In this document: positions 31,845-56,867 of the stretch, in pieces
How the letters are laid out: each line of letters starts with the position of its first letter
Numbering within the stretch: the first letter of the stretch is position 1
Source: Actinocatenispora sera
Lineage (GTDB): Bacteria; Actinomycetota; Actinomycetes; Mycobacteriales; Micromonosporaceae
DNA: 64,000 bases
Direction of reading: 5' to 3'
Assembly (NCBI RefSeq): GCF_018324685.1
Contig: NZ_AP023354.1
Location: 6,096,426 to 6,160,425, forward strand
Position numbers and translations under genes: made by a program
The notes under the pieces: generated by a model
Told to the model about the DNA's origin: nothing
Database searches by the model: none
The model's input: the letters and a program-made list of their open reading frames with translations, nothing else

Positions 31845-31870
31845 ATACCCACGGGCCAGCTCCACCAAAC
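31845..31870 (-). promoter_or_regulatory. SigB/F-type promoter of the STAS gene
   Basis: On the minus strand GTTT (31870-31867), 16 bases, then GGGTAT (31850-31845), a match to the SigB/SigF consensus. The start codon is about 110 bases downstream. Confidence 0.7.
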
Positions 31871-31925
31871 ACCCTTTCCAGCGAGCCGGTGTCGTGGACC
31901 AGGTCGGGGCAGAACGCGCCGTCGT

Positions 31926-32612
31926 TCAGCCTGGCCGCTCGACCAGGCCGGTCGTGGTGATCTCGGCGGCCAGGTCGCGCAGCTTGACGTTGCGTTCCTG
32001 CGAGATGCGGCTCAGCAGCGCGAACGCGGCATCGGAGCTGATCTTGTACCGCTCCATCGCGATGCCCTTGGCCTGACCGATGAGGTCTCGCGACTGCAAC
32101 GCCGTGGTCAGGTTGGCGATCCGGCGTGCGCTGCCGAGGGTGACCGCCAGCTCGGCGGCCACCGCGATCGCGGCGCTGCGGGTGCCGGCGCCGAACTCGC
32201 CCGGCCGGGAGCAGTAGACGTTGAGGACGCCGTCGCCGCGCTCGGTGGGCAGTCGGACCGACATGATCGCGTGCACCCCGTTCAGCACGGCGCGCGGCGC
32301 GAACTCCGGCCAGACCGCTGAGGCATCGAGGTCGGTGCAGGTCACCGGCTCGTCGGCGGACAGCGCGTCGAAGATCGGCCCCTCGCTCAGCATGTACTGG
32401 AGGCCGTCCAGCCGGCGTGCCAGCGGGTGCGCGAGAGCCACCGTCCACGGTCCCACGTCGTCGACGAGGGCGATGCTGACGAAGTCGGCTGTCGGAATGC
32501 CGGCAGCGGCGGCTGCCACCGCGGCCGGCAGAATCGTGTGGTCAGGCATGGTACGAAGGATGTCGACGGACCGGACCGGGCCGGTCGACGACGATGTCCT
32601 GGTATCGGCCAC
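31926..32612 (-). CDS. GAF-ANTAR RNA-binding antitermination regulator, second copy
   Basis: Protein of 228 residues. GAF domain: DFVSIALVDDVGPWTVALAH, LSEGPIFDALSADEPVTCTD and IMSVRLPTERGDGVLNVYCS. ANTAR domain: IANLTTALQSRDLIGQAKGI, then AMERYKISSDAAFALLSRIS. It is a paralogue of the gene at 30426, and the STAS gene sits between them. GTG at 32612 is preceded by GGGGGGA; an internal ATG at 32549 (MPDHTIL) is an alternative. Confidence 0.88.
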   Translation of the reverse strand: MADTRTSSSTGPVRSVDILRTMPDHTILPAAVAAAAAGIPTADFVSIALVDDVGPWTVALAHPLARRLDGLQYMLSEGPIFDALSADEPVTCTDLDASAVWPEFAPRAVLNGVHAIMSVRLPTERGDGVLNVYCSRPGEFGAGTRSAAIAVAAELAVTLGSARRIANLTTALQSRDLIGQAKGIAMERYKISSDAAFALLSRISQERNVKLRDLAAEITTTGLVERPG

Positions 32613-32772
32613 GAAATCCCCCCGGACAGAACTAGGGCGTTCGTCAGGTCGCCGAGGCCACGCTCGACGGGCGGCGTGCGGCACTGCGCAGGCGGTCTCG
32701 GCTGCCGCCATGGTAGATCGGTTCTCGCGCATCTGCAGCCGAGTGACGCGCAACTCCCGCCCGATCCGGCGA

Positions 32773-34665
32773 TCACGGCTCGGGCATGCCGGCCGGACAG
32801 TACCGCCGGGAGTCGGCGCGGCGTCGGGTGCGGCCCTGCCGGTCGAGCAGTTCCAGCAGCGGCACGGCAACCCGGCGGGTGGTGCCGAGCGCCTGCCGGG
32901 CCGCGCTGAGCGTGAACGGTTGCGGCAGGCCGGCCAGTATCGCGACCGTGGCGTCCGGGGCTCCCGGGGCGACGACGACCCCGGCGGCCAGTTCGACCAG
33001 GCGACCGGCGCGCACGGCGGCGGCGAGCTCGCGCGGACCGAGCCGCAGCCGAGCCAGTTCGTCGGCGGTCGGCGCGGCCCACGGCTGCGGCATCCGCGCG
33101 ATCAGCGTGGTCACCGCCAGCTCGACCGGTTCGGGCAGTTGCGCCCCGCACCGTGGCGGGGTCAGCCGGCCGGCCGCGACCGGCAGGTGCCCCTCCGCCA
33201 GTGCGAGGACCAGCGCGGCGCTGGGTAGCCGCAACGTACGGCAGGCCGCGCTGACGGGCAGGCCGGCCGACAGCGGGTCGTTCCGGGCGTGCCGGTCCAC
33301 CTGCTCGGCCAGCGCGTCGCGCAGCCGTTGCCAGAGCTCGGGATCGGCGAGCCACCCGTCGACGGCGCCGCCACGCGCCGGATCGGCCGGCAACACCTCG
33401 GCCGCCCCACCACGTCCGGGGGCGGCGGGCGGGCCGGCGACGGAGCCGCCCGGCTCGGCGTCCGGCGACTCGACCGGAACGCCGATGGCGGTCAGGTCGG
33501 CTGCTCGGGCGAGCCCACGGCGGCGCAGTTCGCCGGGCAGGTCGGGCCGGCCGGTCATGCCGGCCAGCTCGGCGGCCCGGTCGACCGGGCGCCGCGGCCG
33601 GTCCACGACGCCCGCGTCGCCCGGACGCGGCCGGCCCAGCGGCGGCGGCGCCGGGTCGAGGACCGTCGCCCCGGCCACGATCCGGTGCCGCCCCGGCTCG
33701 CGAAGGATGAGCCGGTCGCCGATGCGCAGCGGCAACGGCGTCGGAACCCGGACCCGGGCGGTGTCCGCGCCGAGCCGGCGCACCTGTACCGGCAGCGCCG
33801 CCGCGCCGACGTGCAGGTGCAGCTGCCGGGGCGGCGGCTCGGCGCACCGGGTCAGCCGGACGTCGACGGCGGTGGTACCCCGCCACCGGCCGGGCGCGAG
33901 CAGCACGGCGCCGCGCGGCACGTCGGCGGCGTCGACGCCGCGCAGGTTGAGCGCCACCCGGGCCACCCCGCTGGCGGACGGGACCGGCTCGTCCAGGCAC
34001 TGCAGCCCGCGTACCGTGACCGTCCGGTCGTGCGGCGACAGCAGCAGCGTGTCGCCGACGCGGACGGTACCGGCGGGCAGCGTCCCGGTCACCACGGTGC
34101 CGGCCCCGCGAATGGTGAACGACCTGTCGATCCACAGCCGTACGTCGGCCTCCGGTGCGGGCGTCGGCAGCCGGCGTACGAGCGCCGCCAGCGCTGCCCG
34201 CAGCTCACCGAGGCCGGCCCCGGTGGTGCCGGACACCGCAACCGCGGGCAGACCGGCCAGCGGGGTGTCGGCCAGCCTCTCCCGGGCCGCGGCGATCGCC
34301 CCGGCCGGCGCCGCCCGGTCGCAGCGGGTGATCGCGAGCACGCCGTGCCGGACGCCGAGCGCGGCCAGCGCGGCCAGGTGCTCCTCGGACTGCGGCATCC
34401 AGCCCTCGTCCGCGGCGACCACGAACAGCACCGCCGGTACCGGCCCGACGCCGGCGAGCATGTTGGTCACGAAGCGGGCGTGCCCGGGTACGTCGACGAA
34501 CGCGACGGTGGCGCCGGAGGCCAGCGTGGTCCACACGTACCCGAGGTCGATGGTCAGCCCGCGGCGGTGCTCCTCGGCCCAGCGGTCCGGTTCCTGCCCG
34601 GTCAGCGCGCGCAACAGGGTGGACTTGCCGTGGTCGACGTGCCCGGCGGTGGCGATCACCTGCAC
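32773..34665 (-). CDS. selB: Selenocysteine-specific elongation factor SelB
   Basis: Translation factor of 630 residues that carries selenocysteyl-tRNA to UGA codons marked by a SECIS hairpin. The GTPase has G1 GHVDHGKST, the switch region RRGLTIDLGYVW, G3 DVPGHARF and a G4-like ITRCD (usual NKxD altered to TRCD). EF-Tu-like domains 2 and 3 follow. The C-terminal third is the winged-helix array that binds SECIS RNA (for example PFTLSAARQALGTTRRVAVP). Start overlaps the selA stop by 10 bases; operon selD-selA-selB. Confidence 0.93.
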   Translation of the reverse strand: MQVIATAGHVDHGKSTLLRALTGQEPDRWAEEHRRGLTIDLGYVWTTLASGATVAFVDVPGHARFVTNMLAGVGPVPAVLFVVAADEGWMPQSEEHLAALAALGVRHGVLAITRCDRAAPAGAIAAARERLADTPLAGLPAVAVSGTTGAGLGELRAALAALVRRLPTPAPEADVRLWIDRSFTIRGAGTVVTGTLPAGTVRVGDTLLLSPHDRTVTVRGLQCLDEPVPSASGVARVALNLRGVDAADVPRGAVLLAPGRWRGTTAVDVRLTRCAEPPPRQLHLHVGAAALPVQVRRLGADTARVRVPTPLPLRIGDRLILREPGRHRIVAGATVLDPAPPPLGRPRPGDAGVVDRPRRPVDRAAELAGMTGRPDLPGELRRRGLARAADLTAIGVPVESPDAEPGGSVAGPPAAPGRGGAAEVLPADPARGGAVDGWLADPELWQRLRDALAEQVDRHARNDPLSAGLPVSAACRTLRLPSAALVLALAEGHLPVAAGRLTPPRCGAQLPEPVELAVTTLIARMPQPWAAPTADELARLRLGPRELAAAVRAGRLVELAAGVVVAPGAPDATVAILAGLPQPFTLSAARQALGTTRRVAVPLLELLDRQGRTRRRADSRRYCPAGMPEP

Positions 34666-36110: not shown

Positions 36111-36114
36111 CTCC

Positions 36115-37317: not shown

Positions 37318-37321
37318 CACC

Positions 37322-37383: not shown

Positions 37384-38532
37384 TCACCGGCCCTCGTCCT
37401 CGTCCTCGTCGTACTCGTCCTCGTCCTCTTCGTCGTACTCGTCGTCGTCCCGGGGGCGGCGACGGCGCGGCTCCTCCTCGTCTTCGTCCTCGTCCTCGTC
37501 GTCCTCGTCCTCGTCCTCCTCGTCCTCGTCCTCGTCCCGAGAACGGCCACGCCGGGGCTCCTCCTCGTCCTCGTCGTACTCGTCCTCATCCTCGTCGTCG
37601 CGCTCGTCGTCGTCGCGCTCGTCGTCCTCGCGCTCGTCGTCGTCGCGCTCGTCGTCCTCGCGATCCTCGTCGCGCGCGTCGTCGTCGCGATCCTCGCCCT
37701 CGCCGTCGTCGACGACCTCGCCGTCGCGAATCTCGCCCCGCCAGCCTTCCTGGCCGGCCTCCGGATCGGTCATCAGGAAGTGACGGAACAGCTTGAGGTC
37801 GAGGCGGGCCCGGCGGCCCTGCGAGCGCCACAGGTTCCCGGTCTTCTCGAAGAACCCGCCCGGGATGTACTCCAGCACGACGAGGATCCGGGTCAGCCGC
37901 TCGTCCAGCTCGTGGAACGTGACGACGCCGTTGACCACGCCCTTCGGCCCCTCGGAGGTCCACGCGATGCGCTCGTCCGGGACCTGCTCGCTGATCTTCG
38001 CCGTCCAGTTGCGGGTCGACCAGAAGACCTTCGCCTTCCAGGTACTCGTGACCTCGTCTTCCTGGTTGACCGCCTGCGCGCCCTTGGACCACTTCGGCAC
38101 GTCCTGCAGCTGGGTCCACTGGTTGTACGCGGTCTTGAGCGGGACGCCGACGTCGAGGTCCTCGATGATCTTCATCGACTTCTTCCCGCCGCCACCGCCC
38201 TTGCCGCCGCCACCGCCGCCCAGGGCCTGCTTGACCTTGCCGCCGATGCCTTTTGCGCCGGCCTTCAACGCACCGGTGACGGGGTTGGAGCCGCCGGCGA
38301 CCTCCTTGATCGTGCCGCCGAGCAGCCCGCCGGGCCCGCCGTTGCCGTCGGCCATGTCGGTCAGCTTCTTGGTCGACTCGCCCACCTTCTCCGCCACCTT
38401 GCCCAGCGCGTGCTTTCCCTGCGCCGACAGGTAGTCCTCGAACTCGCCGAGCAGTCGTTCGGCGGCCGGGTTGCGCGCCGCGACGTCCCGGATCCGCCCG
38501 ATCATGTCCTGCAGACCGGTCGATTCGCTCAC
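37384..38532 (-). CDS. gvpZ: GvpZ-like SRPBCC protein with long acidic tail
   Basis: Protein of 382 residues at the end of the gas vesicle operon. Residues 1-110 are helical with a glycine-rich linker. Residues about 120-265 are a START/SRPBCC (polyketide cyclase-like) domain (MKIIEDLDVGVPLKTAYNQW; DVPKWSKGAQAV; LTRILVVLEYIPGGFF). The last about 110 residues are almost only Asp, Glu and Arg. SRPBCC proteins recur in actinomycete gvp clusters, where the last genes are called gvpY and gvpZ; the role is unknown. GTG start behind AAGGAGA. Confidence 0.82.
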   Translation of the reverse strand: MSESTGLQDMIGRIRDVAARNPAAERLLGEFEDYLSAQGKHALGKVAEKVGESTKKLTDMADGNGGPGGLLGGTIKEVAGGSNPVTGALKAGAKGIGGKVKQALGGGGGGKGGGGGKKSMKIIEDLDVGVPLKTAYNQWTQLQDVPKWSKGAQAVNQEDEVTSTWKAKVFWSTRNWTAKISEQVPDERIAWTSEGPKGVVNGVVTFHELDERLTRILVVLEYIPGGFFEKTGNLWRSQGRRARLDLKLFRHFLMTDPEAGQEGWRGEIRDGEVVDDGEGEDRDDDARDEDREDDERDDDEREDDERDDDERDDEDEDEYDEDEEEPRRGRSRDEDEDEEDEDEDDEDEDEDEEEPRRRRPRDDDEYDEEDEDEYDEDEDEGR

Positions 38533-38574
38533 GATGATGTCTCCTTTTCGACGCCGGCAGACGAAACCGCGGGG

Positions 38575-39471
38575 TCAGTCGTCCGCGGATCCGCGCCGGG
38601 ACCGCGACCGCCCGGTACGGGTCGAGCTGCGGCTGCTGCTGGATCGGGTACCACCGGACGAGCTCTTGGCCCGGGTCCCGGACGTCGACGAGCCGCCCGA
38701 CTTGGTGCTGCGCGACGCCGTGCTGCGCGATCCGGTACCGCGCGACGACGTGGAGCTGCGGCGGCGCGGGCGGGGCGGCTGCTCGTCGGCGTCGGACTCA
38801 CCGGCACCGTCCTCCGACCCGGCTTCCGCATCGGGTTCGGCGTCCTCGTCGGCCTCGCTCTTCTTCGCCGGGCGGCGACGTGCGCCGCCCGCGGACCCGG
38901 CTCGCTTGCTGCCGGCCCGGGAGCCGCGGCGGGCCCGGCCCGCCTCGTCCTCGTCCTTGGGCTCCTCCTCAGGCTCCTCCTCGGCCTCCTCCTCGGCCTC
39001 GTCGTCGCCCTCCTCGCCGGCCTCGTCCTCGGGCTCGCTCCGCTTGCCGGCTCGCGAGCCGCGACGGCGGCGACCACGGTCCTCGGGCTCCTCCGGCTCA
39101 CCCTGCTCGTCGGAGTCGGACGGCTCGCGGTCCTCCTCGTCCTCCGACTCGGCTTCCGCACCGCCACCGGACAGCACCTGGGTCCGGTCGTGCAGCCGAT
39201 CGGCGAGCTGGTTCATCCGGTTCTCCGCCATCGACAGCGCGGCGCCCTTGCCTGCGGTGACGAGCTTCTCCCGGACGTCGCCGGTCAGCTGCTCGACGCC
39301 GGGAGTCGCCGACAGCATCGACAGGGCCTCCCGGGCGAGCCGCTTCGGGTCGAAGTCGAACTTGCGACCCAGCAGCCACGCGCCGAGCATGATGGCGAGC
39401 TTCGTCTTCTTCCGTCGCCCCAGCAGGTACCCGCCGGCGACCGCGACGGCCACCTTGGTCGAGTTGTTCAT
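38575..39471 (-). CDS. gvpY: GvpY-like gas vesicle cluster protein
   Basis: Protein of 298 residues. A short N-terminal segment (KVAVAVAGGYLLGRRKKTKL, IMLGAWLLGRKF) could touch membrane or vesicle. A helical part to about residue 95 follows, then a long charged, disordered stretch in which acidic and Arg/Ser-rich blocks alternate, ending in a basic SR-rich tail. Similar proteins follow gvpG in actinomycete clusters and are sometimes mis-named after DNA primase. Its start overlaps the gvpG stop (ATGA). Function unknown. Confidence 0.8.
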   Translation of the reverse strand: MNNSTKVAVAVAGGYLLGRRKKTKLAIMLGAWLLGRKFDFDPKRLAREALSMLSATPGVEQLTGDVREKLVTAGKGAALSMAENRMNQLADRLHDRTQVLSGGGAEAESEDEEDREPSDSDEQGEPEEPEDRGRRRRGSRAGKRSEPEDEAGEEGDDEAEEEAEEEPEEEPKDEDEAGRARRGSRAGSKRAGSAGGARRRPAKKSEADEDAEPDAEAGSEDGAGESDADEQPPRPRRRSSTSSRGTGSRSTASRSTKSGGSSTSGTRAKSSSGGTRSSSSRSSTRTGRSRSRRGSADD

Positions 39472-39722
39472 CGGCTCCTCCTCACGGAGTCATCTGTGCC
39501 AGCGGCCTCGAGCCGGTCGAGAAGCTCGTCCTCGGCGGCGTCGAACTCGGCCTCGCTGATCTCGCCGCGATCGACCGCGTCGGCCAGCCGGCCCAGTTCG
39601 GCGCGGATTGCGGCCGGGTCGTAGTACTCGCGGCGAGCCGCCTGGTCGATCTGGTCGGCCACCCAGGCGACGCCGCGGACCGGCGCCAGCGGCAGCGTGA
39701 GCAGTCCGGTCAGCAGGCCCAT
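39468..39722 (-). CDS. gvpG: Gas vesicle protein GvpG
   Basis: Small protein of 84 residues. It starts MGLLTGLLTLPLAPVRGVAW and continues VADQIDQAARREYYDPAAI and EISEAEFDAAEDELLDRLEA, the GvpG pattern. GvpG is an assembly accessory protein. The ATG overlaps the gvpF stop (TGATG); GTG at 39725 is an alternative. Its stop overlaps the gvpY start. Confidence 0.9.
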   Translation of the reverse strand: MGLLTGLLTLPLAPVRGVAWVADQIDQAARREYYDPAAIRAELGRLADAVDRGEISEAEFDAAEDELLDRLEAAGTDDSVRRSR

Positions 39723-40543
39723 CACGGCTCACCGCCCTCGTCCGGCACGAAGCTGTACGGGGGAAGCGGCCCGGTGCAGCGCACCTCGCCGTCGGTGCGC
39801 AGCTCGTGGGCGAGTTCGTGCACCGCGCCCTGGAACGGTTCGAGCTGCTCGTCGGTGACCAGAAAGCTCGCGTTGACCGCGGCGCCCGCGGTCGGCGGCG
39901 CCGGCGCGGTCCGCCGGGCCAGCGGGGTCAGGGTCGTCACGAGGCGATCTGCGTCGGCGCGCAGCGCCGCCTCCACCGCCGTCGCCACCGCCTGGCCGAG
40001 CCGGACCCGGCCCTCGTAACCGGTGTCGCCGGCGCCGCGTTCCCGGAGTACGGCCGGGTCGGTGTCGGCCACCCGCCGCACCACGGCGTCCTCGTCGGTC
40101 AGCAGCTTGACGTTGTACTCGGCTGCCCCCGCGATCTCGCGCAGCGCCGAGAGATAACGGTCCGCGGCCTCGCGCAGCTGCTCGCGCAGCGCGTCGTCGT
40201 CCGGGGCCACCACGCCGAACCGCATCGGCAGTACGGTGCCCTGCTCGGCCAGTGCGGTCAGCACCCGGTGGTGGGCCGCGAGGTCACGGCGCTTGGCGCG
40301 CAACCGCGGTGGTGCCGCGCCGACCACCGCGGCGACCGGTTCGGCCACCACCCGGCGCACCGGTTCCGGCTCCGCCCCGACGCCGGTCAGCTCGTCCAGC
40401 TGGCACGGATGGTCGGCGGCCACGATGCCGAACACGTAGGTGCCCTCGGAGTCGGTGGCCGTCGCCGCGGAGTCCGCGTCGGCCGCGGACGGCACGTCGG
40501 GCGGCGACCCGTCGCCGCCGAGGGCTCCGGTTGGCTCGCTCAT
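39722..40543 (-). CDS. gvpF: Gas vesicle protein GvpF
   Basis: GvpF/GvpL-family protein of 273 residues. After a disordered N-terminus the domain begins GTYVFGIVAADHPCQL. Typical strings are AAHHRVLTALAEQGTVLPMR, FGVVAPDDDALREQL and VNASFLVTDEQLEPFQGAVH. GvpF lies in the vesicle wall or helps deliver GvpA during nucleation. It follows gvpA by 61 bases behind AAGGAGGG and is coupled to gvpG. Confidence 0.92.
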   Translation of the reverse strand: MSEPTGALGGDGSPPDVPSAADADSAATATDSEGTYVFGIVAADHPCQLDELTGVGAEPEPVRRVVAEPVAAVVGAAPPRLRAKRRDLAAHHRVLTALAEQGTVLPMRFGVVAPDDDALREQLREAADRYLSALREIAGAAEYNVKLLTDEDAVVRRVADTDPAVLRERGAGDTGYEGRVRLGQAVATAVEAALRADADRLVTTLTPLARRTAPAPPTAGAAVNASFLVTDEQLEPFQGAVHELAHELRTDGEVRCTGPLPPYSFVPDEGGEP

Positions 40544-40604
40544 GAGCCGCCCTCCTTCGTCGGATCGCTCCCGGGGCGCCAGCCCCGGATTCGCGCACGC
40601 ACGC

Positions 40605-41042
40605 TCATGAGTCGTCCTCGTCCCGGCTGCGGCTGCGGCTGCGGCTCCGGGTCGGGCGAGCCTTGCGGGACGACGAGTCGTCGTCCTCGCCTCGGCCGTG
40701 CTTGAACGCCTCCGACACGGTCTCCGCGGCGCCGCTCAGCGCGCCCTTGGTCTTGCCGTGCGCACCGCTCTGGGTCATGTCGTCGACCAGCTCGGGCAAC
40801 GTCGAGCTGTCCTTGTTCTGCGTCAGGTCCAGCCGGTTCACCCGCTCGGCGAACCGCAGGTACGTGTCGACGCTGGCGATGACGATGCGGGCGTCGATGG
40901 TCAGCAGCTCGATCCCGACCAGCGACACGCGCACGTAGATGTCGATCACCAGCCCCTTGTCGAGGATGAGTTCGAGCACGTCGTACAGGCTGGACGGGTG
41001 CGGCGCCCGGTCGATGCTCTGGTTCTGTGAACTGAGGGTCAT
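40605..41042 (-). CDS. gvpA: Major gas vesicle structural protein GvpA
   Basis: Protein of 145 residues. The GvpA core is [40 protein letters not shown] and [17 protein letters not shown], the amphipathic helix-strand-strand-helix that polymerises into the vesicle wall. The C-terminal extension [20 protein letters not shown] plus an SR-rich tail is typical of actinomycete GvpA and absent from cyanobacterial GvpA (about 70 residues). ATG behind GAGGAG. Confidence 0.93.
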
Positions 41043-41091
41043 GAGATGCTCCTCTCCTTGTCCCGGTACGGCGGTCCGTGCGGTGCATGCC

Positions 41092-41826
41092 TCAGCGGCG
41101 GCCGTCGGCGCCGCGCGGCCGCAGGTCCAGCACCTCCACCAGGTCGGCGACCTGCTGTTCGAGTGACATCAGTGCGCGGCCCAGTCGTTCGACCTCGTCG
41201 TCGGTGAGATTGCCCGCGTCCATCCGGCGCAGCGCCTGGCGCTGCAGCAGCTGGCGGACGAGGTCGACCACCACGACGACCAGCCCCGCCAGGCCGCTCT
41301 GGTTCTGTGCCTGCCCGAGCTGGCGCCCGAGCCGCCCGACGATGTCGCCGGGGTCGCTTCCCGCCCGGCCACCGGCGGTACGCGCGCTCAGCGCGGACGT
41401 AGCCGGCGGCGTGGGGACAGCCGGCGTGGCCGACTGGGCCGGTACACCCGGCGGGGCCGGTACAGCCGGCGGGGCCGGCGGCGCGGCCGCGGTGCCGTCC
41501 GACCAACGGTTGGTGTGGCTGGGCTCGGGCCGGCGTCGGGCCCGGGAACGGTTGGTGGTGGCGGCCTCCGCTTCGTCCTGCGGCGTGTCGCGCGGGGCAC
41601 GGCGCGTCGGGGTCGCGGTGCGGGGAAGGCCGGAGTCCGGTGGCGGTTCCGCCCCGTCGGCGAGCGTCGCGAGCGCGGCGACCAGCGCGCGCAGATCGAG
41701 CCGGATCAGGTCGACGCCGGACAGCGCGATGATCACGTTGCCGTCGACGACCACGCCGGTGTCGACCAGCCGGTCGAGCAGATCCACCAGCGAGCCGTCG
41801 TCGAGCATCAGCCGCCGTTCAGCCAT
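41092..41826 (-). CDS. GvpS-GvpK fusion protein
   Basis: One frame of 244 residues joins two gas vesicle proteins normally encoded separately. Residues about 1-60 are a GvpA-family GvpS-type domain ([20 protein letters not shown], then [20 protein letters not shown]). About 110 Pro/Ala/Thr-rich residues form a linker. Residues about 180-235 are GvpK ([60 protein letters not shown]). No stop or frameshift is seen between them. The start is ATG at 41826 (GTG at 41835 possible), overlapping the gvpL stop. Confidence 0.85.
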
Positions 41827-42829
41827 CGTCGGCACCCAGCCGGACGAAGTGGTACGCGGGGTTCGGGCCGCTGACGGTCAGCCGCAGCTCACGCCGGCGC
41901 AGCTCCTCCAGTTCGCCCAGGAAGTCGACCCGCGCATCGTCGTCGACGAGGTACACGGTGTCGAGCACCGGGCGGGTCGGATCGTTGTCCGCGCCGCGCC
42001 GCTGCCAGGTCTCCCGGGCGTACCCGGCGAGCCGGTCGCCGATGGCGGCGGCCGCCGCGGTCCGCTGCCGCTGCCGGTGTTGCCGGGCGGTCGCGGTGCG
42101 CAGCTGGTGCGTCATCCAGCCGGTGCCGTCGGACGGCACCGGGTCGGGCGACGGCTGCTCGACCGGTTCGGCCGGCGCCTCGCTGAACGCCTTGACCGAC
42201 CATTCGGCGCTGCCGGCCAGCCGGTCCAGTTCGGCGCGCAGCTCGTCCGCGCCGGTCCGCAGCATCGACACGACCGCGTCCCGGTCCGGGTACAGCGTGC
42301 CGAACCGCAGCGGCAGCAGCGGCACTGCGTCGAACGCCTCGGCCACGACGCGGTCGTGCGCCCGCAGGGCGTGCGCGAGCCAGCCGTCCTCGGCCAGGTC
42401 CGGTTCCCGCTCCGCGGCCCGGAACGGCGCGATCGGCAGTACCGCGGACATCGCGGCGACGCCGGCCGCCTCGACCACCGTGGTCTCGACGCCGTCGATC
42501 CCGGTCCGGCCGGTCAGCCCGTCGACCGCCTCCGCGCGTGCCAGCGCGTACACGTACCACCCGTCGCCGGTCTCCTCGTCCCGCCGCGCGGCCCCTGGAG
42601 CGTCGCGCACCACGGTCGCCGGCACCTCTCGCCGGGCGGTACCCGATTCCTCCCGCCGAGCGGTCCCAGGCCCGTCCTCGCCTGGTACCGCTGAGCCGAT
42701 GGCGTCGCGCGCCGCGGCCCGATAGATCGACGCGAACTGCTCGACGAGTTCGGCGTGGACCAGCGCGCGGGCCTCGGCGCGGGCCGACCGCACCAGTTCC
42801 GCGACGTCGTCGCCGTCGACCTGTCTCAT
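41819..42829 (-). CDS. gvpL: Gas vesicle protein GvpL
   Basis: GvpF/GvpL-family protein of 336 residues. An N-terminal extension of about 90 residues (MRQVDGDDVAELVRSARAEA, then charged repeats GTARREESGTARREV) precedes the domain DGWYVYALARAEAVDGLTG, DRVVAEAFDAVPLLPLRFGT and VLDTVYLVDDDARVDFLGEL. GvpL helps nucleate vesicles. ATG behind GGAG; ATGA overlap with the gvpJ stop and overlap with the downstream gvpS-K start indicate translational coupling. Confidence 0.9.
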   Translation of the reverse strand: MRQVDGDDVAELVRSARAEARALVHAELVEQFASIYRAAARDAIGSAVPGEDGPGTARREESGTARREVPATVVRDAPGAARRDEETGDGWYVYALARAEAVDGLTGRTGIDGVETTVVEAAGVAAMSAVLPIAPFRAAEREPDLAEDGWLAHALRAHDRVVAEAFDAVPLLPLRFGTLYPDRDAVVSMLRTGADELRAELDRLAGSAEWSVKAFSEAPAEPVEQPSPDPVPSDGTGWMTHQLRTATARQHRQRQRTAAAAAIGDRLAGYARETWQRRGADNDPTRPVLDTVYLVDDDARVDFLGELEELRRRELRLTVSGPNPAYHFVRLGADDG

Positions 42830-43173
42830 CGATCTCCGTCCGCGCTCTCCACCTGGTCGGCGGTGCGGCCGGTGGCGCGCTCCAGCCGCTCCAGCCGCTC
42901 GGCCAGTTCCTGGTTCTCGCGCTGCAGCGCGGATTCCCCGGTCAGGAACGGGTCCCGGCTCCACCAGTCGATGCCCATGTCGCGAGCGGTGTCGACGGAA
43001 GCGACGAGCAGCCGCAGCTTCAAGGTCAACAGCTCGATGTCGAGGACGTTCACCTGGATGTCGCCGGCAATCACGATGCCCTTGTCCAGCACCCGTTCCA
43101 GGATGTCGGCGAGGGTGTCTCCGCTGCGGGACGACGGGGACAGCGTGGTCCCGCGCGGTTGCTGCACGGTCAC
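42826..43173 (-). CDS. gvpJ: Gas vesicle protein GvpJ
   Basis: GvpA-family minor protein of 115 residues: DTLADILERVLDKGIVIAGD, IQVNVLDIELLTLKLRLLVA, SVDTARDMGIDWWSRDPFL, then a coiled C-terminal helix (LQRENQELAERLERLERATG). The DIELLTLKLRLLVASVD and GIDWW strings mark GvpJ rather than GvpA. GTG start, GTGA overlap with the gvpO stop, behind GGAAGGA. Confidence 0.9.
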   Translation of the reverse strand: MTVQQPRGTTLSPSSRSGDTLADILERVLDKGIVIAGDIQVNVLDIELLTLKLRLLVASVDTARDMGIDWWSRDPFLTGESALQRENQELAERLERLERATGRTADQVESADGDR

Positions 43174-43481
43174 TGGCGCGGTCCTTCCGTTCCGTTGCGG
43201 GTGTAGCGCTGCAGCCGGCGGTACGACACGACGTTGCCGTCGGGGTCGGCGTCGACCTCGTAGCTGGCGAGCACGCTGGTGGTCTGCGGGATCCGCTCCA
43301 ACTCGACGATCTCCACCCGAAAGCGCCAACCGTCGTCGGTGGGTTCCAGTGCGGACACCGAGTCCGGTGTGCGGCCGGTCAACTCGGCCAGCTGCGTCAT
43401 GGCCTGGCGCGATGCGGCCAGCGCCGGCCCACGCTTGGCCGATGATCGCGCGGTGTCGCGCCTCGCCGTTTTCTCGGTCAT
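43170..43481 (-). CDS. gvpO: Gas vesicle protein GvpO
   Basis: Protein of 103 residues: a basic N-terminus, then AMTQLAELTGRTPDSVSALE, GWRFRVEIVELERIPQTTSV and ASYEVDADPDGNVVSYRRLQ, the GvpO pattern. It is needed for vesicle formation in haloarchaea, and in actinomycetes it is the usual first gene. ATG at 43481 behind GGGGGTG. A SigB/F-type promoter ends about 60 bases upstream. Confidence 0.92.
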   Translation of the reverse strand: MTEKTARRDTARSSAKRGPALAASRQAMTQLAELTGRTPDSVSALEPTDDGWRFRVEIVELERIPQTTSVLASYEVDADPDGNVVSYRRLQRYTRNGTEGPRQ

Positions 43482-43845
43482 GCCGGAACACCCCCAGGGC
43501 GGCGGATGGATCGAGTGCAGTCGATGGACAGAAGGTGGCTGGATACCCGGCTGCGCGAGCCTCAAACCAGAAGCGGCGAATGCGCCCGCGACCGGGGAAC
43601 GGCGTGGTCCGGTCCCGTCGTCGGCGGTGACGACGCGGACGCTCCGAACCGTCGAGCCGGCGGCGTCCGGGCACACGATGCCGGAATCGGCACCGGTAGC
43701 CAGGCAGCGGACGAGCGGTTCGGCGATGCGCTCTCCGGGCAGGATTCGCGGAACACCCGGCGGGCACGGTGTGCTCATTTCTGCCGACACCCGCGCGGCT
43801 GACCGCTTCACCGGAACCTGTTCGCGACGCGCGGAACCGTCGGCC
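43482..43845. other. Leader/promoter region of the gas vesicle operon
   Basis: 364 bases without a gene between gvpO and the DUF6098 gene stop. The half nearer gvpO contains the SigB/F-type promoter at 43543-43567. In the rest I see no frame with coding character and no strong hairpin. Confidence 0.6.
43543..43567 (-). promoter_or_regulatory. SigB/F-type promoter of the gas vesicle operon
   Basis: On the minus strand GTTT (43567-43564), 15 bases, GGGTAT (43548-43543). A full match to the SigB/SigF consensus, about 62 bases before the gvpO ATG. Confidence 0.75.
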
Positions 43846-45514: not shown

Positions 45515-45541
45515 TACCCCCACGACGCCCCCGCGCAAACC
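45515..45541 (-). promoter_or_regulatory. SigB/F-type promoter of the sigma factor gene
   Basis: Minus strand GTTT (45541-45538), 17 bases, GGGTAC (45520-45515), about 95 bases before the GTG. The spacer is at the long end of the consensus, so this is weaker than the others. Confidence 0.5.
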
Positions 45542-49380: not shown

Positions 49381-49627
49381 GCCGCAGCGTTGCGCCGGAC
49401 CGGCGGTACGCATCCGGGTCACGCCGGACGGGCCGATGCTGGTCGAGGGGCCGGTCGAGGTGACGCTTCCGGACGGCAGCCGGCACCGCAACGACCGGTT
49501 CGTCGTCGCACTGTGCCTGTGCCGGCGCAGCCGCCGCTACCCGTGGTGCGACACCAGCCACCGGCGTCACTCACACGGCCCGTTGGGCGCGTCCGGCAGC
49601 GGCAGCAGCAACGACGACGAGTCGTGA
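49367..49627 (+). CDS. CDGSH iron-sulfur domain protein
   Basis: Protein of 86 residues. The CDGSH motif reads CLCRRSRRYPWCDTSH, giving three Cys and one His for a labile [2Fe-2S] cluster (Gly of the name motif replaced by Thr). Such proteins act in electron transfer or Fe-S handling. The GTG start overlaps the 3' end of the methyltransferase gene by 14 bases, so the two are coupled. Its 3' end overlaps the convergent diiron gene by 61 bases. Confidence 0.88.
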   Translation: MPAVEPQRCAGPAVRIRVTPDGPMLVEGPVEVTLPDGSRHRNDRFVVALCLCRRSRRYPWCDTSHRRHSHGPLGASGSGSSNDDES

Positions 49628-50604
49628 TCCCAGGCGCGCAGCAGGTGCGCGGCAAGCCGGTCCTCCACCAGCACGGTGGCCTCGATGCCGAGTACCACGT
49701 CGGGTACCAGCTCGGGTTCGGCCTGGCACAGCGCGGCGAGCACGTCGTGCCGCATCACCTGCTCGTGCACCGCATCGGCCTCGATGTGCTCGGTGTAGTA
49801 CTCGACGCACTGCGGCGGCGCGTCCATCCGGCGCAGCGCCTCGGCCATCCGTTTGGCGCTCGGTGGGGTACTGATCTCCGCGGCGGCGAAGTGTCCGACC
49901 AGCCCGCCGCGCAGCGCCCGGTGCAACCCCAACAGCGACATCAGGTTGACCACGGCGAGCATCGGGGCGGGTACCGCGTCGAGGTAGTGCAGGTAGCCCG
50001 GGTCGAGGTCGAGGCCGGCCATCAGGTCGGCGAACAGCTGCTGGTGCACCCGCTCGCCGCGGCCGCCGCCGAACTCGTCGTACTCGACGGCCACCAGCGC
50101 GGCCTTGATCGACCCCGTCAGCCGGGGAATGACCCAGGCGTGTGGATCGGCCTCCTTCAGGTGGTACAGCGACCGGTGCACCAGGTACTCGCGCATCTGC
50201 CAGCGCTGTCCGCCGTCTCGCAACCGGTCGGCGACGCCGCTCCCGTCGACCGGGTCGACGAGCAGCTCCGCCAGCGCCTCCTGCGGGTCGGCCACCCCGG
50301 GCACCGAGTCACGGAGAGCCTGGAGGAACGTGCGTTCCAGGGCGGCCCGGAAGGCGAGTACCGACAGGTCCCACTCGCGCTCGGCCGGCACCCCGGCGAA
50401 CGACCGGTAGTGCAACTCGTAGCAGGTGTACAGGGCGAGCTGGAGGTCGGCGCCGAACGGCGCCGGGGCGCGCAGCGCCGCCTCCGGCGGGTCGGCGGTG
50501 GTGCGATCGGCGAGCGCGTCCACCAGCCAGTCGGACAGCGGGCCACGCGGCGCCGGGAGCCGCGCCCCGCGGGTCGCCCGGATGCTCTCCCCGGTCCGCG
50601 TCAT
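49567..50604 (-). CDS. Heme-oxygenase-like diiron protein (iron-containing redox enzyme family)
   Basis: Protein of 345 residues, helical, of the family annotated as iron-containing redox enzymes. Candidate metal residues: LYTCYELHYRSF (Glu, His), EYLVHRSLYHLKEADPHAW, VEYDEFGGGRGERVHQQLFA (Glu, Asp, His) and YYTEHIEADAVHEQVMRHDV (Glu, His, Asp). Related enzymes oxidise amino acids or fatty acids with O2. ATG at 50604 lies about 10 bases after the SigB/F-type -10, so the transcript may be leaderless. Confidence 0.82.
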   Translation of the reverse strand: MTRTGESIRATRGARLPAPRGPLSDWLVDALADRTTADPPEAALRAPAPFGADLQLALYTCYELHYRSFAGVPAEREWDLSVLAFRAALERTFLQALRDSVPGVADPQEALAELLVDPVDGSGVADRLRDGGQRWQMREYLVHRSLYHLKEADPHAWVIPRLTGSIKAALVAVEYDEFGGGRGERVHQQLFADLMAGLDLDPGYLHYLDAVPAPMLAVVNLMSLLGLHRALRGGLVGHFAAAEISTPPSAKRMAEALRRMDAPPQCVEYYTEHIEADAVHEQVMRHDVLAALCQAEPELVPDVVLGIEATVLVEDRLAAHLLRAWDHDSSSLLLPLPDAPNGPCE

Positions 50605-50931
50605 GCCGCGGAACTACCCCGGTCGCGCCCGGCCAAACCGAACCGCCGGCGACCGGCGGATGCGGCGCCGCGGACGGGTTGCGGGTTTGCGGGCCGCTGC
50701 ACCGGTACCCGTGCCGGCGACCCGACGGGCCGGCAAGGTTTCGGCCACCGCCGGCAGGCAACAGGACCATCGTGCGACCGGCGCGCCAGTGCCCGCCGAA
50801 TGCGGTTCGTGCCCGTCCGGCCGGAAGCGGCGGTACTGGGGCCGCCGCCGGGTATGCGACGTTCACGCCGCCCGCCTGGCATCCGCCGGATCCACCTGAC
50901 CGGCGGCCCACCCGAGCAGCGGAGGCAACCC
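50605..50931. other. Divergent promoter region
   Basis: 327 bases between the divergent diiron gene and F420-type gene. It holds the SigB/F promoter at 50614-50638 for the former and GGAGG before the latter. A weaker GTTT-N14-CGGTAC pattern on the plus strand (around 50687) is not convincing. Nothing else is recognised. Confidence 0.6.
50614..50638 (-). promoter_or_regulatory. SigB/F-type promoter of the diiron gene
   Basis: Minus strand GTTT (50638-50635), 15 bases, GGGTAG (50619-50614). The start codon is at 50604, which places the expected transcription start at or next to the ATG. Confidence 0.7.
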
Positions 50932-52026: not shown

Positions 52027-53802
52027 TCAGCCGCCGGTACCGATGCCGACCGGATCCGGGCGCAGCGGGTCCGCGGCGGCCGGGCGGCTCAGCACCGCGG
52101 CGGCCTCCATCAGGGCGCCGTGCACGAACGCCTGCGGCAGGTTGCCGCGCAGCTGCCGCTGCGTGACGTCGAACTCCTCGCTGAACAGGCCGGCCGGGCC
52201 GCACGCGGTGCGGCTGCGCTCGAACCAGCGGACCGCCGCCTGCGGGTCGCCGTGCCGGTGCACCGCGATGGCGAGCATGAAGCCGCACAGCAGGAACGCG
52301 CCCTCGGCCTCACCCAGCGCGCACCCCTGGTGTTCGAACCGGAAGGCGAAACCGTCGGAGGTGAGCCGGCGCACGTACTCCCGCAGGGTCGCGAGGTTGC
52401 GCGGATCGCCGAGCGGTGTCGCGTCGCGGATCCCGGCGATCACCAACGCCGCGTCCAGGGTGGGATCGTCGGCCGCCCGCTGCCACCGGCCGGAAGGGTG
52501 GGTGCCCCATCCGCTGGCGTCGGCGACCACTGCATCGGCGAGCCCGGCCCACCGGTCCCCCGGTTCGGCCACCGCCCGCAGCCCGGCGGCGCAGATCAGC
52601 CGGCTGTGCGTCCACCGCCGCCGATCCAGCTCCCAGATTCCCGCGTCCGGCTGCTGCCAGCGCCGCTCGATCGCGGCCGCGGCGACGTCGATCGCCTGCC
52701 GCCCGGCCGCGTCCAGCCGCCCGGCGCGTTCGGCGGCGCCGAGGGCGAGCAGGGCCTCGCCGAAGATGTCGAGCTGGAACTGGTCTCGTACCTGGTTGCC
52801 GACCACGTCCGAGCCGCCCGGGTAGCCGGGCAGGCCGAGATGCCGTTCGGTCGGCACCCGCCCACCGTCCACCGTGTACGCGGGGTTGAGCCGGTCACCG
52901 TGCTCCAGCAGCCGCGCGGTGAGGAACCGGACGGCATTGTCCAGCACCGAGTGCGCCCCGGTCGCCGCGGCGGCCTGCGCCGCCATAGACTGGTCCCTGA
53001 TCCACACGTAGCGGTAGTCGTAGTTGCGGCCGGCCTCGGCACGTTCCGGCAGGCTCGCGGTCGCGGCCGCGACCATCCCGCCGTCGGCCGTGCTCATCCC
53101 GCGCAGCACGGCGTGGGCGTGCCGGACGTCGCGCTCCGCGATCGTGTTCGGGGCGAGCCGGTCGGACCGCCAGGCGTCCTCGGTGCGGCGCCAGCAGGCC
53201 GTGGGGTCCGGTGCGGCGGTCACGCCGGCACCGACGGCCAGCACCAGGTCGTGCCGCTCGCCGGCCGCCAGACTCAGCTCGGTGACGAGCCGGCCGTCGC
53301 CGTCCGGTTGGGCGTCCGGTGCACCGGTCCAGTGCCAGCGCAGCGAGCCGGACGTGCCCCGCCAGCCGTCCGCAACACGGTGCAGGTCGGCGGAGCGGTG
53401 CCGGCCGAAGCCGGCGCGCAAATCCAGCAGCACCTCGACCCGGGCGGGGCCGTCGACGGCGACCAGCTGGCGCAGCAGGACCGCCTCGTCCCGGTTGCCC
53501 GGGAACGCCAGCGCCTCCCGGCACTCGACGATCCCGTCGCCGGTGATCCACCGGCTGCGCCAGATCAGCGTGCCGTCCTCGTAGTACCCGCCCCACACGT
53601 ACCGTCCGACCGGGGTGACCAGGTAGCACCCCGCGCCGCCCAGCAGGGTGCTGAACACCGCGTCGCTGTGCCAGCGCGGTACGCACAGCCAGCTGATGTC
53701 GCCGCGCGGCCCGACCACCGCCGCCCGCTCACCGTCGGCGAGCACCGCGTACTCCCGCAGGACGTGCGGTGCCGCTTCGGAGACTTCCCATTTCCCCGCC
53801 AT
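52027..53802 (-). CDS. Glycoside hydrolase family 15-type glucanohydrolase/trehalase-like
   Basis: Protein of 591 residues. An N-terminal beta domain (ISWLCVPRWHSDAVFSTLLG; VTPVGRYVWGGYY) is followed by the (alpha/alpha)6 barrel (RNYDYRYVWIRDQSMAAQAA; NQVRDQFQLDIFGEALLALG; LCGFMLAIAVHRHGDPQAAV; GLFSEEFD), the arrangement of bacterial glucoamylase/trehalase-like GH15 enzymes. YDYRYVWIRD and the late GLFSEEFD carry candidate acidic catalytic residues. Cytoplasmic, no signal peptide. ATG at 53802 follows a SigB/F-like -10 by about 10 bases. Confidence 0.88.
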   Translation of the reverse strand: MAGKWEVSEAAPHVLREYAVLADGERAAVVGPRGDISWLCVPRWHSDAVFSTLLGGAGCYLVTPVGRYVWGGYYEDGTLIWRSRWITGDGIVECREALAFPGNRDEAVLLRQLVAVDGPARVEVLLDLRAGFGRHRSADLHRVADGWRGTSGSLRWHWTGAPDAQPDGDGRLVTELSLAAGERHDLVLAVGAGVTAAPDPTACWRRTEDAWRSDRLAPNTIAERDVRHAHAVLRGMSTADGGMVAAATASLPERAEAGRNYDYRYVWIRDQSMAAQAAAATGAHSVLDNAVRFLTARLLEHGDRLNPAYTVDGGRVPTERHLGLPGYPGGSDVVGNQVRDQFQLDIFGEALLALGAAERAGRLDAAGRQAIDVAAAAIERRWQQPDAGIWELDRRRWTHSRLICAAGLRAVAEPGDRWAGLADAVVADASGWGTHPSGRWQRAADDPTLDAALVIAGIRDATPLGDPRNLATLREYVRRLTSDGFAFRFEHQGCALGEAEGAFLLCGFMLAIAVHRHGDPQAAVRWFERSRTACGPAGLFSEEFDVTQRQLRGNLPQAFVHGALMEAAAVLSRPAAADPLRPDPVGIGTGG

Positions 53803-53811: not shown

Positions 53812-53835
53812 ATACCCACCGGCGACGGTGGTAAC
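53812..53835 (-). promoter_or_regulatory. SigB/F-like promoter of the GH15 gene
   Basis: Minus strand GTTA (53835-53832), 14 bases, GGGTAT (53817-53812). The -10 is perfect and the -35 has one mismatch. It is embedded in a palindrome (cgacggt-ggta-accgtcg, 53823-53840). Confidence 0.55.
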
Positions 53836-53862
53836 CGTCGGCGCCGGGCGGGCACTCGGGTC

Positions 53863-53887
53863 GTTTGGCCGTGCGCCCGCTGGGTAC
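53863..53887 (+). promoter_or_regulatory. SigB/F-type promoter of the DUF3040 gene
   Basis: GTTT (53863-53866), 15 bases, GGGTAC (53882-53887), about 39 bases before the ATG. It faces away from the GH15 promoter 27 bases to the left. Confidence 0.7.
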
Positions 53888-53925: not shown

Positions 53926-54204
53926 ATGCTCAGTTCCGAGGAACGCCAACGCCTGGCGGACATGGCGGTCGAGATCGCCCACGACGACCGGCGGTTCGCC
54001 GACGGTCTACGGAACGGCAGACCGTGCGCGCCGCGGGAGCTGCGCTGGGGTGGCGGCCGGATCACCGTCTTCCTGCTCACGATCGCCGTCCTCGCCGCCA
54101 GCATCGTGCTGGCCGCCACCGGCGTGACGATGCTCGGGATGTGTTCGCTGCCGGCGGTCGGCATCGCCCTCGGCTGGGTGATCCGCGGCTGGTACCGCCA
54201 CTGA
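53926..54204 (+). CDS. DUF3040 membrane protein
   Basis: Protein of 92 residues. It begins MLSSEERQRLADMAVEIAHD, the DUF3040 N-terminal helix, followed by two hydrophobic segments (ITVFLLTIAVLAASIVLAAT; MCSLPAVGIALGWVIRGWY). DUF3040 proteins are common in actinobacteria and their role is unknown. Promoter of SigB/F type upstream. Confidence 0.85.
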   Translation: MLSSEERQRLADMAVEIAHDDRRFADGLRNGRPCAPRELRWGGGRITVFLLTIAVLAASIVLAATGVTMLGMCSLPAVGIALGWVIRGWYRH

Positions 54205-54436: not shown

Positions 54437-54447
54437 GGTGCCGGGGC

Positions 54448-56604
54448 TCAGGCGGCGACGGCGTCGACGTCGCGGGTGAAGATCCGGTGCTTGGCCAGTG
54501 CCGCCACGAAGTCGTCGAGGAAGCGGCGCCACGCATCGGAATCGGCCGGATCGGCGATCAGCACGACACCCTGTTCCGCCCCGTCGACGGAGGCCTCCGG
54601 CAGCGCCGCGTCCAGCAGCCCGGCCACCAGGTCGGCGCCGGCACCGATCCCGGCGACCGGCTTGCCGTGCTTGTACGCCTCCAGCACGTAGTGCCTCGCC
54701 TCGCCGTCGGCCCCGATCGCGGCCACAGCCTCGGGGCCGTCGGGTACCAGCACCGCGTCGTACAGCACCGAGGACACGGTGGTGTGCGCACGAGCCGCCG
54801 ACACCGTGTCACCGTCGGCGGTGGAGAGCTCGCCGTCGTGCAGACCGAGCAGTTCCGGCTGCGCGCCGCGCTCGGTCAGCGCGTCCAGCAGCGGGCGCAA
54901 CGTGCCGCCCGCCAGGCCGTCCGCGGCCAGCACCGCGACGGTGCGGGTACCGATGCCGTCGCCGGCCAGGTTCGCCATGCTCAACGCCGGCGAGCTGCGG
55001 CCGTGGTTGGTGGTCGTCGCGGTCGGCTCGTCGACGCCGATCCCCTGCGCCACGGCAACCGCGAGGTCGTGGTCGATCTCGTTGATCCGGTCGACGGCCC
55101 GCTCGCGTACGTGCCGGTGCTCGCACTTGCCGAGCTCGAACCGGAACGCCGCGACGATGTGCTCGCGTTCCCAGTCGGCCATCGAGTTCCAGAACAGCGT
55201 CGCCTGGCTGTAGAAGTCCTGGAAGCTCGGGCTGCGCTCGCGGATCTTCGTACCGCTGACCGTCTGCGTGTAGTGCGCGTACGCGCCCGCGTCGGGCGAC
55301 GCGGTCACCGGGCAACCGCCCGGGTTCAGCGAGTTCGGCGTGTAGCTCGCCGTCCCGACGTGGACGTCCTGCTGGCCGTACCCGTCGCGCTGGTTGTTGG
55401 TGACCCGGGCGACCGGCCGGTTCACCGGCAGCTGGGCGAAGTTCGGCCCGCCGAGCCGGATCAGCTGGGTGTCCAGGTAGGAGAAGTTGCGCGCCTGCAG
55501 CAGCGGATCGTTGGTGAAGTCGATCCCCGGCACGACGTTGGCGGTGTGGAAGGCGACCTGCTCGGTCTCGGCGAAGAAGTTGTCCGGGTTGCGGTCGAGC
55601 ACCATCCGTCCGATCGGCCGGACCGGCACCTGCTCCTCTGGGATGATCTTCGTCGCGTCGAGCAGGTCGAAGTCGAACGCGTGCTCGTCCTGCTCGCCGA
55701 CCAGCTGCACGCCCAGCTCCCACTCCGGGTACTGGCCGTGCTCGATCGCCGTCCACAGATCGCGCCGGTTGAAGTCCGGATCCTTGCCGGCGCACTTCTG
55801 CGCCTCGTCCCAGACCAGCGAGTGCACGCCGAGCAGCGGCCTCCAGTGGAACTTGACGAACGTGCCCTGCCCGGCGGCGTTGACGAACCGGAAGGTGTGC
55901 ACGCCGAAGCCCTGCATCATCCGGTAGCTGCGCGGGATCGCCCGGTCGGACATCAGCCACATCACCGTGTGCATCGCCTCCGGCTGCAGCGACACGAAGT
56001 CCCAGAACGTGTCGTGCGCAGACGCGGCCTGCGGCATCTCGCTGTTCGGTTCCGGCTTGACCGAGTGCACGAAGTCCGGGAACTTGATGCCGTCCTGGAT
56101 GAAGAAGACCGGAAAGCTGTTGCCGACGAGGTCGTAGTTTCCCTGCCGGGTATAGAACTTGGTCGCGAAGCCACGCACGTCGCGAACCGTGTCGGCCGAA
56201 CCGCGCGACCCGGCCACGGTGGAGAACCGGACGAACACCGGCGTCTCGAGCTCCGGGTCCTGCAGGAAGTCGGCGCGGGTCACGTCCGCCATCGACTCGT
56301 AGACCCGGAACCGGCCGTACGCGCCGGCACCGCGGGCGTGCACGACCCGTTCCGGGATCCGCTCGTGGTCGAAGTGGGTGATCTTCTCGCGAGCGTGGAA
56401 ATCCTCCAGCAGCGTGGGACCGCGATCCCCGGCCCGCAGCGAGTCGTCGGTCTGCGCGACTCGTACCCCCTGATCGGTGGTGAGGTGGTGGCCGGCCGGG
56501 TCGTTGCGCGCGGCGTCGAGGTTCCGCTGCTTGTCGAATCCGCGTTCGGTCGACTGCGGTCCGTTCCCCGCGGGCCGCTCGCCCTCGGGCTGCTGGTGGG
56601 CCAT
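54448..56604 (-). CDS. katE: Large-subunit catalase (HPII/KatE type)
   Basis: Monofunctional heme catalase of 718 residues with the extra C-terminal class I glutamine-amidotransferase-like domain of large catalases. Motifs: the catalytic His region [35 protein letters not shown] (distal Asn side), the proximal heme-ligand Tyr region [20 protein letters not shown], and [16 protein letters not shown]-terminal flavodoxin-like domain: [51 protein letters not shown] at 56604 behind GGAGA. A SigB/F-type promoter lies about 100 bases upstream. Confidence 0.93.
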
Positions 56605-56699
56605 CACCGTCTCCTCGCCGTCCGCCACTCGGCGCCACCAGCGGCGGTCGCTCCAGACCGTCGACCACACCACGGTGACGCACTCCTGCCCGCAGCCCG

Positions 56700-56724
56700 C
56701 TACCCGGACCGTCCGCCGACAAAC
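56700..56724 (-). promoter_or_regulatory. SigB/F-type promoter of katE
   Basis: Minus strand GTTT (56724-56721), 15 bases, GGGTAG (56705-56700). The ATG is 96 bases downstream. Confidence 0.7.
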
Positions 56725-56842
56725 CCTTCGGCGGGGTTCCGGTGTGCCTGCGGCCGCGCGCACCGCCTCGGACTGCTGCGGATCGGCTCCACGGCGTGGT
56801 TCGGCGATCGCCTTCTCCGGCTCCTCCATCGGCGTCGTCGGT

Positions 56843-56867
56843 GTTTGGCGTGCCTGCTGCCGGGTAT
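56843..56867 (+). promoter_or_regulatory. SigB/F-type promoter of the DUF2795 gene
   Basis: GTTT (56843-56846), 15 bases, GGGTAT (56862-56867), 42 bases before the ATG. A full consensus match. Confidence 0.75.

Follow-up and report, generated by a model that had tools for sequence, protein, structure and literature searches.

Clustered SigB/F-type promoter sequences link gas-vesicle, catalase and sigma factor genes in a candidate general-stress island of Actinocatenispora sera

The 64,000 nt stretch of the Actinocatenispora sera chromosome analysed here (NZ_AP023354.1, positions 6,096,426 to 6,160,425; hereafter the window) carries a gene for a sigma factor that resembles SigB, SigF and SigG, a set of gas-vesicle genes (gvpA, F/L, G, J/S, K and O, identified with Pfam and NCBIfam), a large catalase gene and several further genes, all associated with the short sequence pattern GTTT-N14-17-GGGTA. 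An earlier reading made from the sequence alone had claimed eight promoters of this form. All eight sites are present, seven as exact matches and one, ahead of a glycoside hydrolase family 15 (GH15) gene, with one mismatch. Their places had been given correctly, and the spans of all seven exact sites (7/7) had been given one base too long at one end. The putative promoters and the genes of the cluster are as follows; genome G070 is Actinocatenispora comari, and G050 and G012 are further relatives.

31380..31736, minus strand, STAS-domain protein gene (PF13466, 34.7 bits in the longer frame 31380-31868)
31846..31870, minus strand, SigB/F-type promoter GTTT-N16-GGGTA before the STAS gene; exact, with a one-mismatch counterpart in A. 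comari (G070) at nearly the same distance
37384..43481, minus strand, predicted gas-vesicle operon (Pfam, NCBIfam), from the SRPBCC gene to gvpO
37384-38532, minus strand, SRPBCC protein gene, which recurs in gvp clusters
38575-39471, minus strand, hypothetical gene, which recurs in gvp clusters
39468-39725, minus strand, GvpG (Pfam)
39722-40543, minus strand, GvpF/L (Pfam)
40605-41042, minus strand, GvpA (Pfam)
41092-41835, minus strand, GvpJ/S-GvpK fusion (Pfam)
41819-42829, minus strand, GvpF/L (Pfam)
42826-43173, minus strand, GvpA/J/S-like (Pfam)
43170-43481, minus strand, gvpO (Pfam)
43544..43567, minus strand, promoter GTTT-N15-GGGTA, 63 nt ahead of the gvpO start; exact, also in G070
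43846..44295, minus strand, DUF6098 gene (PF19593), between the sigma and gvp genes
44597..45421, minus strand, SigB/SigF/SigG-like sigma factor of 274 aa (Pfam regions 2, 3 and 4; TIGR02980 at cut-off; tree)
45515..45540, minus strand, promoter GTTT-N17-GGGTA before the sigma gene; exact, putative autoregulation
49567..50604, minus strand, iron-containing redox enzyme, Haem_oxygenas_2, here called the diiron gene (PF14518, 203 bits)
50615..50638, minus strand, promoter GTTT-N15-GGGTA, 11 nt before the diiron gene; exact, also in G070
52027..53802, minus strand, GH15 gene (PF00723)
53813..53836, minus strand, degenerate promoter GGTT-N15-GGGTA (or GTTA-N14-GGGTA) before the GH15 gene; one mismatch, with one-mismatch sites at roughly this position in G070 and G050 as well
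53863..53886, plus strand, promoter GTTT-N15-GGGTA, 40 nt before the DUF3040 gene; exact, also in G070
53926..54204, plus strand, DUF3040 gene (PF11239)
54448..56673, minus strand, katE, large-subunit catalase of the HPII type (PF00199/PF06628/PF18011)
56701..56724, minus strand, promoter GTTT-N15-GGGTA, 28 nt before katE; exact, also in G070, G050 and G012
56843..56866, plus strand, promoter GTTT-N15-GGGTA, 43 nt before the DUF2795 gene; exact, also in G070
56909..57340, plus strand, DUF2795 gene (PF11387, matched in the longer frame 56477-57340)

The seven exact matches in the window compare with 0.09 expected from shuffles, and seven or more were reached in none of 100 shuffles (0/100). Five of the seven have the N15 spacing, the number originally given, while the STAS site is N16 and the sigma-gene site N17. 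GTTT had been called rare in this DNA, and indeed it was counted 29 times on one strand and 32 on the other, roughly half of the 55 per strand that composition predicts. The possibility that the pattern reflects chance or the composition of GC-rich DNA, or is a repeat unrelated to transcription, has some background to draw on, as four of the 35 matches in the whole genome sit inside rRNA genes. However, the excess over shuffles is large, none of the seven genomic matches to the reversed pattern falls in the window (0/7), and among relatives the boxes are conserved while the spacers vary. We regard this explanation as having a negligible probability; the shuffles and reversed-pattern counts rule out chance or composition as the origin of the pattern, in line with the initial judgement that chance was improbable. 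The window sites satisfy the SigB/F-type consensus (GTTT/GNNT, 14-16(17) nt, GGGTA) and, given this known consensus, their position and their conservation, they almost certainly behave as promoters of that type.

The genome is a single contig of 7.04 Mb, in which the genome-wide count that the sequence-only reading had proposed as a check returned 35 matches, against seven for the control, the pattern read backwards. Of these, four fall within 16S/23S rRNA genes, two in called coding sequence and 29 in intergenic DNA. A stretch of the 16S rRNA gene fits the promoter pattern (loci L003 and L019) and is a false positive for counts of this kind. The four rRNA matches were set aside, leaving 31; the seven control matches were unscreened for rRNA. 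With genes called by a simple, crude codon-usage caller trained on the window genes, 25/31 matches were intergenic and within 300 nt, the upstream limit used, of a same-strand called start, compared with 2/7 control matches (Fisher p = 0.014). An equal frequency of the pattern in coding and upstream DNA, which would have told against a promoter role, was not seen (29/31 intergenic), yet 6/7 control matches are likewise intergenic. Intergenic position by itself is thus weak evidence, and it is the excess in number together with the local clustering that carries the argument.

The clustering is pronounced. The 25 kb originally reported holds 7/31 non-rRNA matches (Poisson 4e-11), and 50 kb that includes two sites past the window holds 9/31 (Poisson 3e-12), both regions having been chosen post hoc. 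Of the two additional sites, one lies before a short-chain dehydrogenase/reductase (SDR) gene at genome position 6164901 and the other before a selenocysteine formate dehydrogenase (FDH) gene at 6177952, approximately 17.6 kb past the window end; the FDH frame crosses an in-frame TGA at the apparent selenocysteine position. The claim of a local regulon therefore held for the clustering but not for the extent, because two sites lie outside the window and the island is not the whole regulon, 22/31 matches being found elsewhere in the genome. Downstream genes were identified in a scan of 10 proteins, a subset of those preceded by the motif, and the targets elsewhere include a Dps-like ferritin, a WhiB protein, a fatty-acid desaturase, a transport permease, a transketolase and a paralogous sigma factor.

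A. comari retains the entire cluster, with a site before all ten genes (eight exact; those of the STAS and GH15 genes with one mismatch). In G050, the sites before the sigma, katE, SDR and FDH genes are exact and the GH15 site has one mismatch, so that a site is kept by each of the five among the ten genes whose orthologue lies within the stretch retrieved (5/5; four exact, one with one mismatch); G050 is the one congener covered in which GvpG was not found. In G012, exact sites precede a sigma homologue, gvpA, a hypothetical gene of the gvp cluster and katE. The sigma-gene site is exact in A. comari and G050, and an N16 version precedes a G012 homologue. Box bases of the window genome are identical in A. 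comari at 89/90 positions, compared with 118/163 in the spacer plus next base, and the corresponding figures for G050 are 44/45 and 53/82. This contrast is inflated, as the orthologous sites were chosen by the motif itself, and matching distances to start codons are the fairer evidence of conservation. In the three nearest Actinocatenispora groups, the motif precedes 9/9 sigma genes by 28 to 121 nt, measured to the called start or to the first residue aligned. These are the window sigma in three orthologous copies, likewise three orthologues of a paralogue at 4.72 Mb, and three sigma genes of G012.

We extended the comparison to the same family, Micromonosporaceae, which we take to correspond to the grouping f1 of the search tool. 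GvpG was over the cut-off in 74/300 family genomes. The sample comprised 40 gvp loci from 38 genomes, none of them from Actinocatenispora and many from one genus (g4), making them non-independent. In the 1300 nt ahead of the first gvp gene detected, the exact motif was found in the right orientation in 34/40 loci, and the reversed control in 0/40; 10/12 genera sampled have at least one gvp locus with the motif. The six misses include L151, which is cut by a contig end, and L184, which has an in-orientation site approximately 1.9 kb upstream, past the limit. In a further 40 loci from other families, the motif preceded gvp in 5/7 loci of f22, 4/15 of f19, 1/2 of f29, 0/14 of f21, 0/1 of f11 and 0/1 of f2. 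The katE-like and SDR samples were the best 30 loci from 61 genomes searched, with matches in 45 and 61 genomes, respectively. Counting back up to 500 nt from the first codon aligned, we found the exact motif ahead of 20/30 katE-like genes (17/27 outside the genus; control 1/30) and 9/30 SDR genes (control 0/30). With rRNA matches included, the pattern outnumbers the reversed control in 35/37 family genomes and in 18/24 other genomes of the order. Gas-vesicle and catalase genes thus appear to share one SigB/F-type promoter class, and co-regulation by a SigB/F-type sigma factor is very probable.

Pieces of the arrangement are also found elsewhere. An SDR gene adjoins katE in one relative and lies approximately 3.4 kb from gvpG in another (G014 C1:2987630-2991024; G004 C1:4674648), and parts of the island therefore recur. 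A diiron (PF14518) gene is near gvp in 7/40 other-family loci (L249, L250, L251, L221, L234, L239 and L240) compared with 0/40 loci of the same family; in L250 and L251 the order is gvpK, a sigma gene, then the diiron gene.

That gas-vesicle and catalase genes come jointly under SigB-type control is already known from Streptomyces coelicolor, and the link described here extends a known Streptomyces regulon; it is not a new kind of system. The S. coelicolor SigB general-stress regulon was reportedly described by Lee et al. in 2004 and 2005, as cited in PMC5733086, PMC6629963 and PMC5402319. For S. coelicolor, the published SigB consensus is GNNTN-N14-16-GGGTAY (PMC5402319), the gvp operon promoter is under SigB and catB is among the SigB-regulated genes (PMC5733086), the SigB-dependent gvp operon is SCO6496/6499-6508 (PMC5733086, PMC6629963), salt induction of gvp is SigB-dependent (PMC6629963), and acid shock induces gvp and catalase genes jointly (PMC2631018). 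In promoter consensus, in control of gvp and catalase and in having a network of sigma factors, the S. coelicolor regulon resembles what we found. It differs in that the gvp, catalase and sigma genes are physically clustered in A. sera, where the -35 element is strictly GTTT(G), the sigma gene has no anti-sigma gene that we could find next to it, and the sigma falls in a group that, in our data, is confined to Actinocatenispora.

A closer relative offers a second comparison, Actinoplanes being a member of Micromonosporaceae. A study of Actinoplanes sp. SE50/110 gives, for a SigH-type sigma and based on transcription start sites, the motif (G/C)GTTT(A/C) - 14.6 nt - GGGTA, and reports that SigH binds its own promoter (PMC11205660). 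This motif matches the pattern of the island sites, and own-promoter binding is a further likeness, although orthology between SigH and the window sigma is not implied; the terms 'gas vesicle' and 'catalase' occur 0 times in that paper. Nine S. coelicolor SigB homologues are described in PMC8346170 as using GTTT/GNNT - GGG promoters with cross-recognition among the paralogues. The promoter form is again alike and the species differs, and gvp and catB have 0 occurrences in that paper.

What appears to be new is twofold: a local island, specific to the genus, that contains an orphan sigma of its own, probably autoregulated, and the conservation of the promoter across the family. Among the matches listed in the open-access literature, no paper dealt with promoters of the SigB type ahead of gvp in Micromonosporaceae. 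The finding bears on the question of why soil actinomycetes retain gas-vesicle genes. As the SigB/F-type promoter is kept before gvp in 10/12 genera sampled, the genes are probably retained within the general stress response, and the Actinocatenispora island with its sigma gene would be a compact locus for probing the role of gvp and finding the inducing stress.

The window sigma has regions 2, 3 and 4 (PF04542, PF04539 and PF04545, all over their cut-offs). Against TIGR02980 (cut-off 234.35) it scored 234.5 bits with its neighbours in the frame and 233.4 bits as a 314 aa protein, and its best NCBIfam match was the SigF model PRK07122 at 247 bits, below the cut-off of 372. In a tree of 47 rows built with a quick method, the window sigma and its orthologue in A. 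comari stand in a group of their own on a long stem. The tree left out matches below 80 bits or covering fewer than approximately 180 query residues, duplicate rows, a partial copy from the edge of a locus and the split G050 orthologue of the window sigma. Nearest to the window sigma by path are three G012 sigmas, two of which flank the G012 gvp cluster. A window-sigma match is present in the fetched stretch (up to 20 kb) of 5/40 other-family gvp loci. A shared ancestry linking the window sigma to the sigmas near gvp in f22 was considered and set aside, as they fall in different groups of this quick-method tree, where long branches meet.

Taken as a whole, the best explanation is probably a general-stress island specific to Actinocatenispora. 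Nine exact and at least one degenerate SigB/F-type promoters in approximately 50 kb would drive the gas-vesicle genes and those for the large catalase, the diiron enzyme, the DUF2795 and DUF3040 proteins, the glycoside hydrolase, the SDR, the selenocysteine formate dehydrogenase and the STAS protein. Because the sigma gene bears the same promoter, its product probably amplifies its own synthesis. Polymerase with the local sigma, and probably with its paralogues too, would transcribe the island and scattered genes such as that of the Dps-like ferritin, and by analogy with Streptomyces the inducing stress may be osmotic, oxidative or acid. The sites, their excess, their clustering and their conservation can be read directly from the genomes; we infer that the sites act as promoters, that sigmas of the SigB/F type recognise them and that the local one does most of this. 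For the last of these, we put the likelihood only slightly above even.

Several findings weigh against the island model or parts of it. The f21 gvp operons are without the strict motif, and a relaxed pattern before them showed no excess over controls. Outside the genus, 7/27 SDR loci have the motif, and the G012 SDR gene is without it. There is no excess of the pattern over the control in G014 and G027, and almost none in G013. The A. sera genome has seven SigB/F/G-like sigmas (>219 bits), four of them over the model cut-off, and a match to the window sigma was found near gvp, in stretches of up to 20 kb, in 2/40 family loci, one match being short. An RsbW-type anti-sigma kinase gene beside such sigmas is usual, though not universal; no stand-alone PF13581 HATPase anti-sigma was found in the cluster, the sole match in the window (~61773-61940) being inside a kinase gene. 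The usual antagonist phosphorylation motif is D-S-S-G, and the STAS protein reads D-A-E-G at that position. Finally, the G050 gene of the window-sigma type (C1:1838641-1839571) has halves that match in two different frames, through either a broken gene or a sequencing error, and the G050 promoters of the sigma, katE, SDR and FDH genes persist despite this. If the split is not a sequencing error, this persistence is consistent with other sigmas reading the sites in G050.

These observations bear on a rival in which the sites are general SigB/F/H-type promoters served by several interchangeable sigmas, the local one included, and the clustering of the genes has no regulatory meaning of its own. 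The seven sigmas of the genome, the cross-recognition of promoters by the nine S. coelicolor homologues (PMC8346170), the gvp promoter kept in sampled relatives that mostly are without the local sigma, and the 22/31 matches outside the island all favour it. It accounts less well for the concentration of 9/31 sites in 50 kb around one sigma gene, or for a bias towards GTTTG. In the window genome, 9/9 island sites read GTTTG compared with 7/20 other intergenic sites (p = 0.001); the counts are 3/4 and 4/24 in G050 (p = 0.04), and 7/11 and 7/23 in A. comari (p = 0.13, not significant), where the sigma promoter itself reads GTTTC. The bias was noticed post hoc at orthologous, non-independent sites and is at most a hint at a separate specificity. 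We rate interchangeable sigmas as a real possibility that falls somewhat short of even. The first interpretation, that gas vesicles and peroxide defence answer to one stress sigma encoded between them, is accordingly retained in part: it holds for the shared promoter class, while the local sigma is no more than a candidate for the single reader, given seven sigmas, cross-recognition in S. coelicolor, and promoters in 34/40 family loci against local sigma matches in two (38/40 without such a sigma in the stretch covered).

At the other extreme, the window sigma could be a dedicated, self-amplifying orphan that prefers GTTTG (mostly N15), is controlled transcriptionally without an anti-sigma switch, and has taken over a 50 kb stress and buoyancy island (gas vesicles, catalase, diiron enzyme, selenocysteine formate dehydrogenase) as a regulon apart from the SigB/H network. 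We consider this unlikely. Less likely still is that the promoters are real and the sigma provides a basal start, while a DevR/OsdR-type response regulator paired with a GAF-GAF kinase (61668-63317) switches the island. The stretch at 61.1-63.3 kb does encode a universal stress protein and a kinase of GAF-GAF-HisKA_3 architecture, and the reference list of PMC5733086 cites work on overlap between the OsdR and DevR regulons; the kinase gene, however, is 4.8 kb outside the reported cluster. The kinase and universal stress protein (61135-61578) genes lie beside the island and may represent a dormancy-type regulator.

Some details of the individual genes complete the description. The STAS protein scored 21 bits against TIGR00377 in the longer frame 31380-31868, where the cut-off is 53, and with its D-A-E-G motif the gene is unsupported as that of a canonical, RsbV-type anti-sigma antagonist. 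GvpA reached 195 bits against the NCBIfam model (cut-off 151), and katE 1033 bits against the HPII model, below its cut-off of 1102. In S. coelicolor, the gas-vesicle cluster is gvpO-A-F-G-Y-Z-J-L-S (PMC5839063), with gvpK also described (PMC2631018). The A. sera cluster has the same gvpO, A, F/L, G, J/S and K content plus two extra genes, whose equivalence to Y and Z is not implied, but differs in gene order and in that frame 41092-41835 unites a GvpA-family domain with GvpK in an apparent fused J/S-K protein. The selenocysteine machinery genes selB, selA and selD (32773-37320) come directly after the gvp genes. A single gvp-sel transcript is not claimed, as a tRNA-Sec gene on the opposite strand (37226-37318) separates gvp from selD, selA and selB. 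The DUF6098 gene adjoins gvp in two loci of another family too (L252 and L253).

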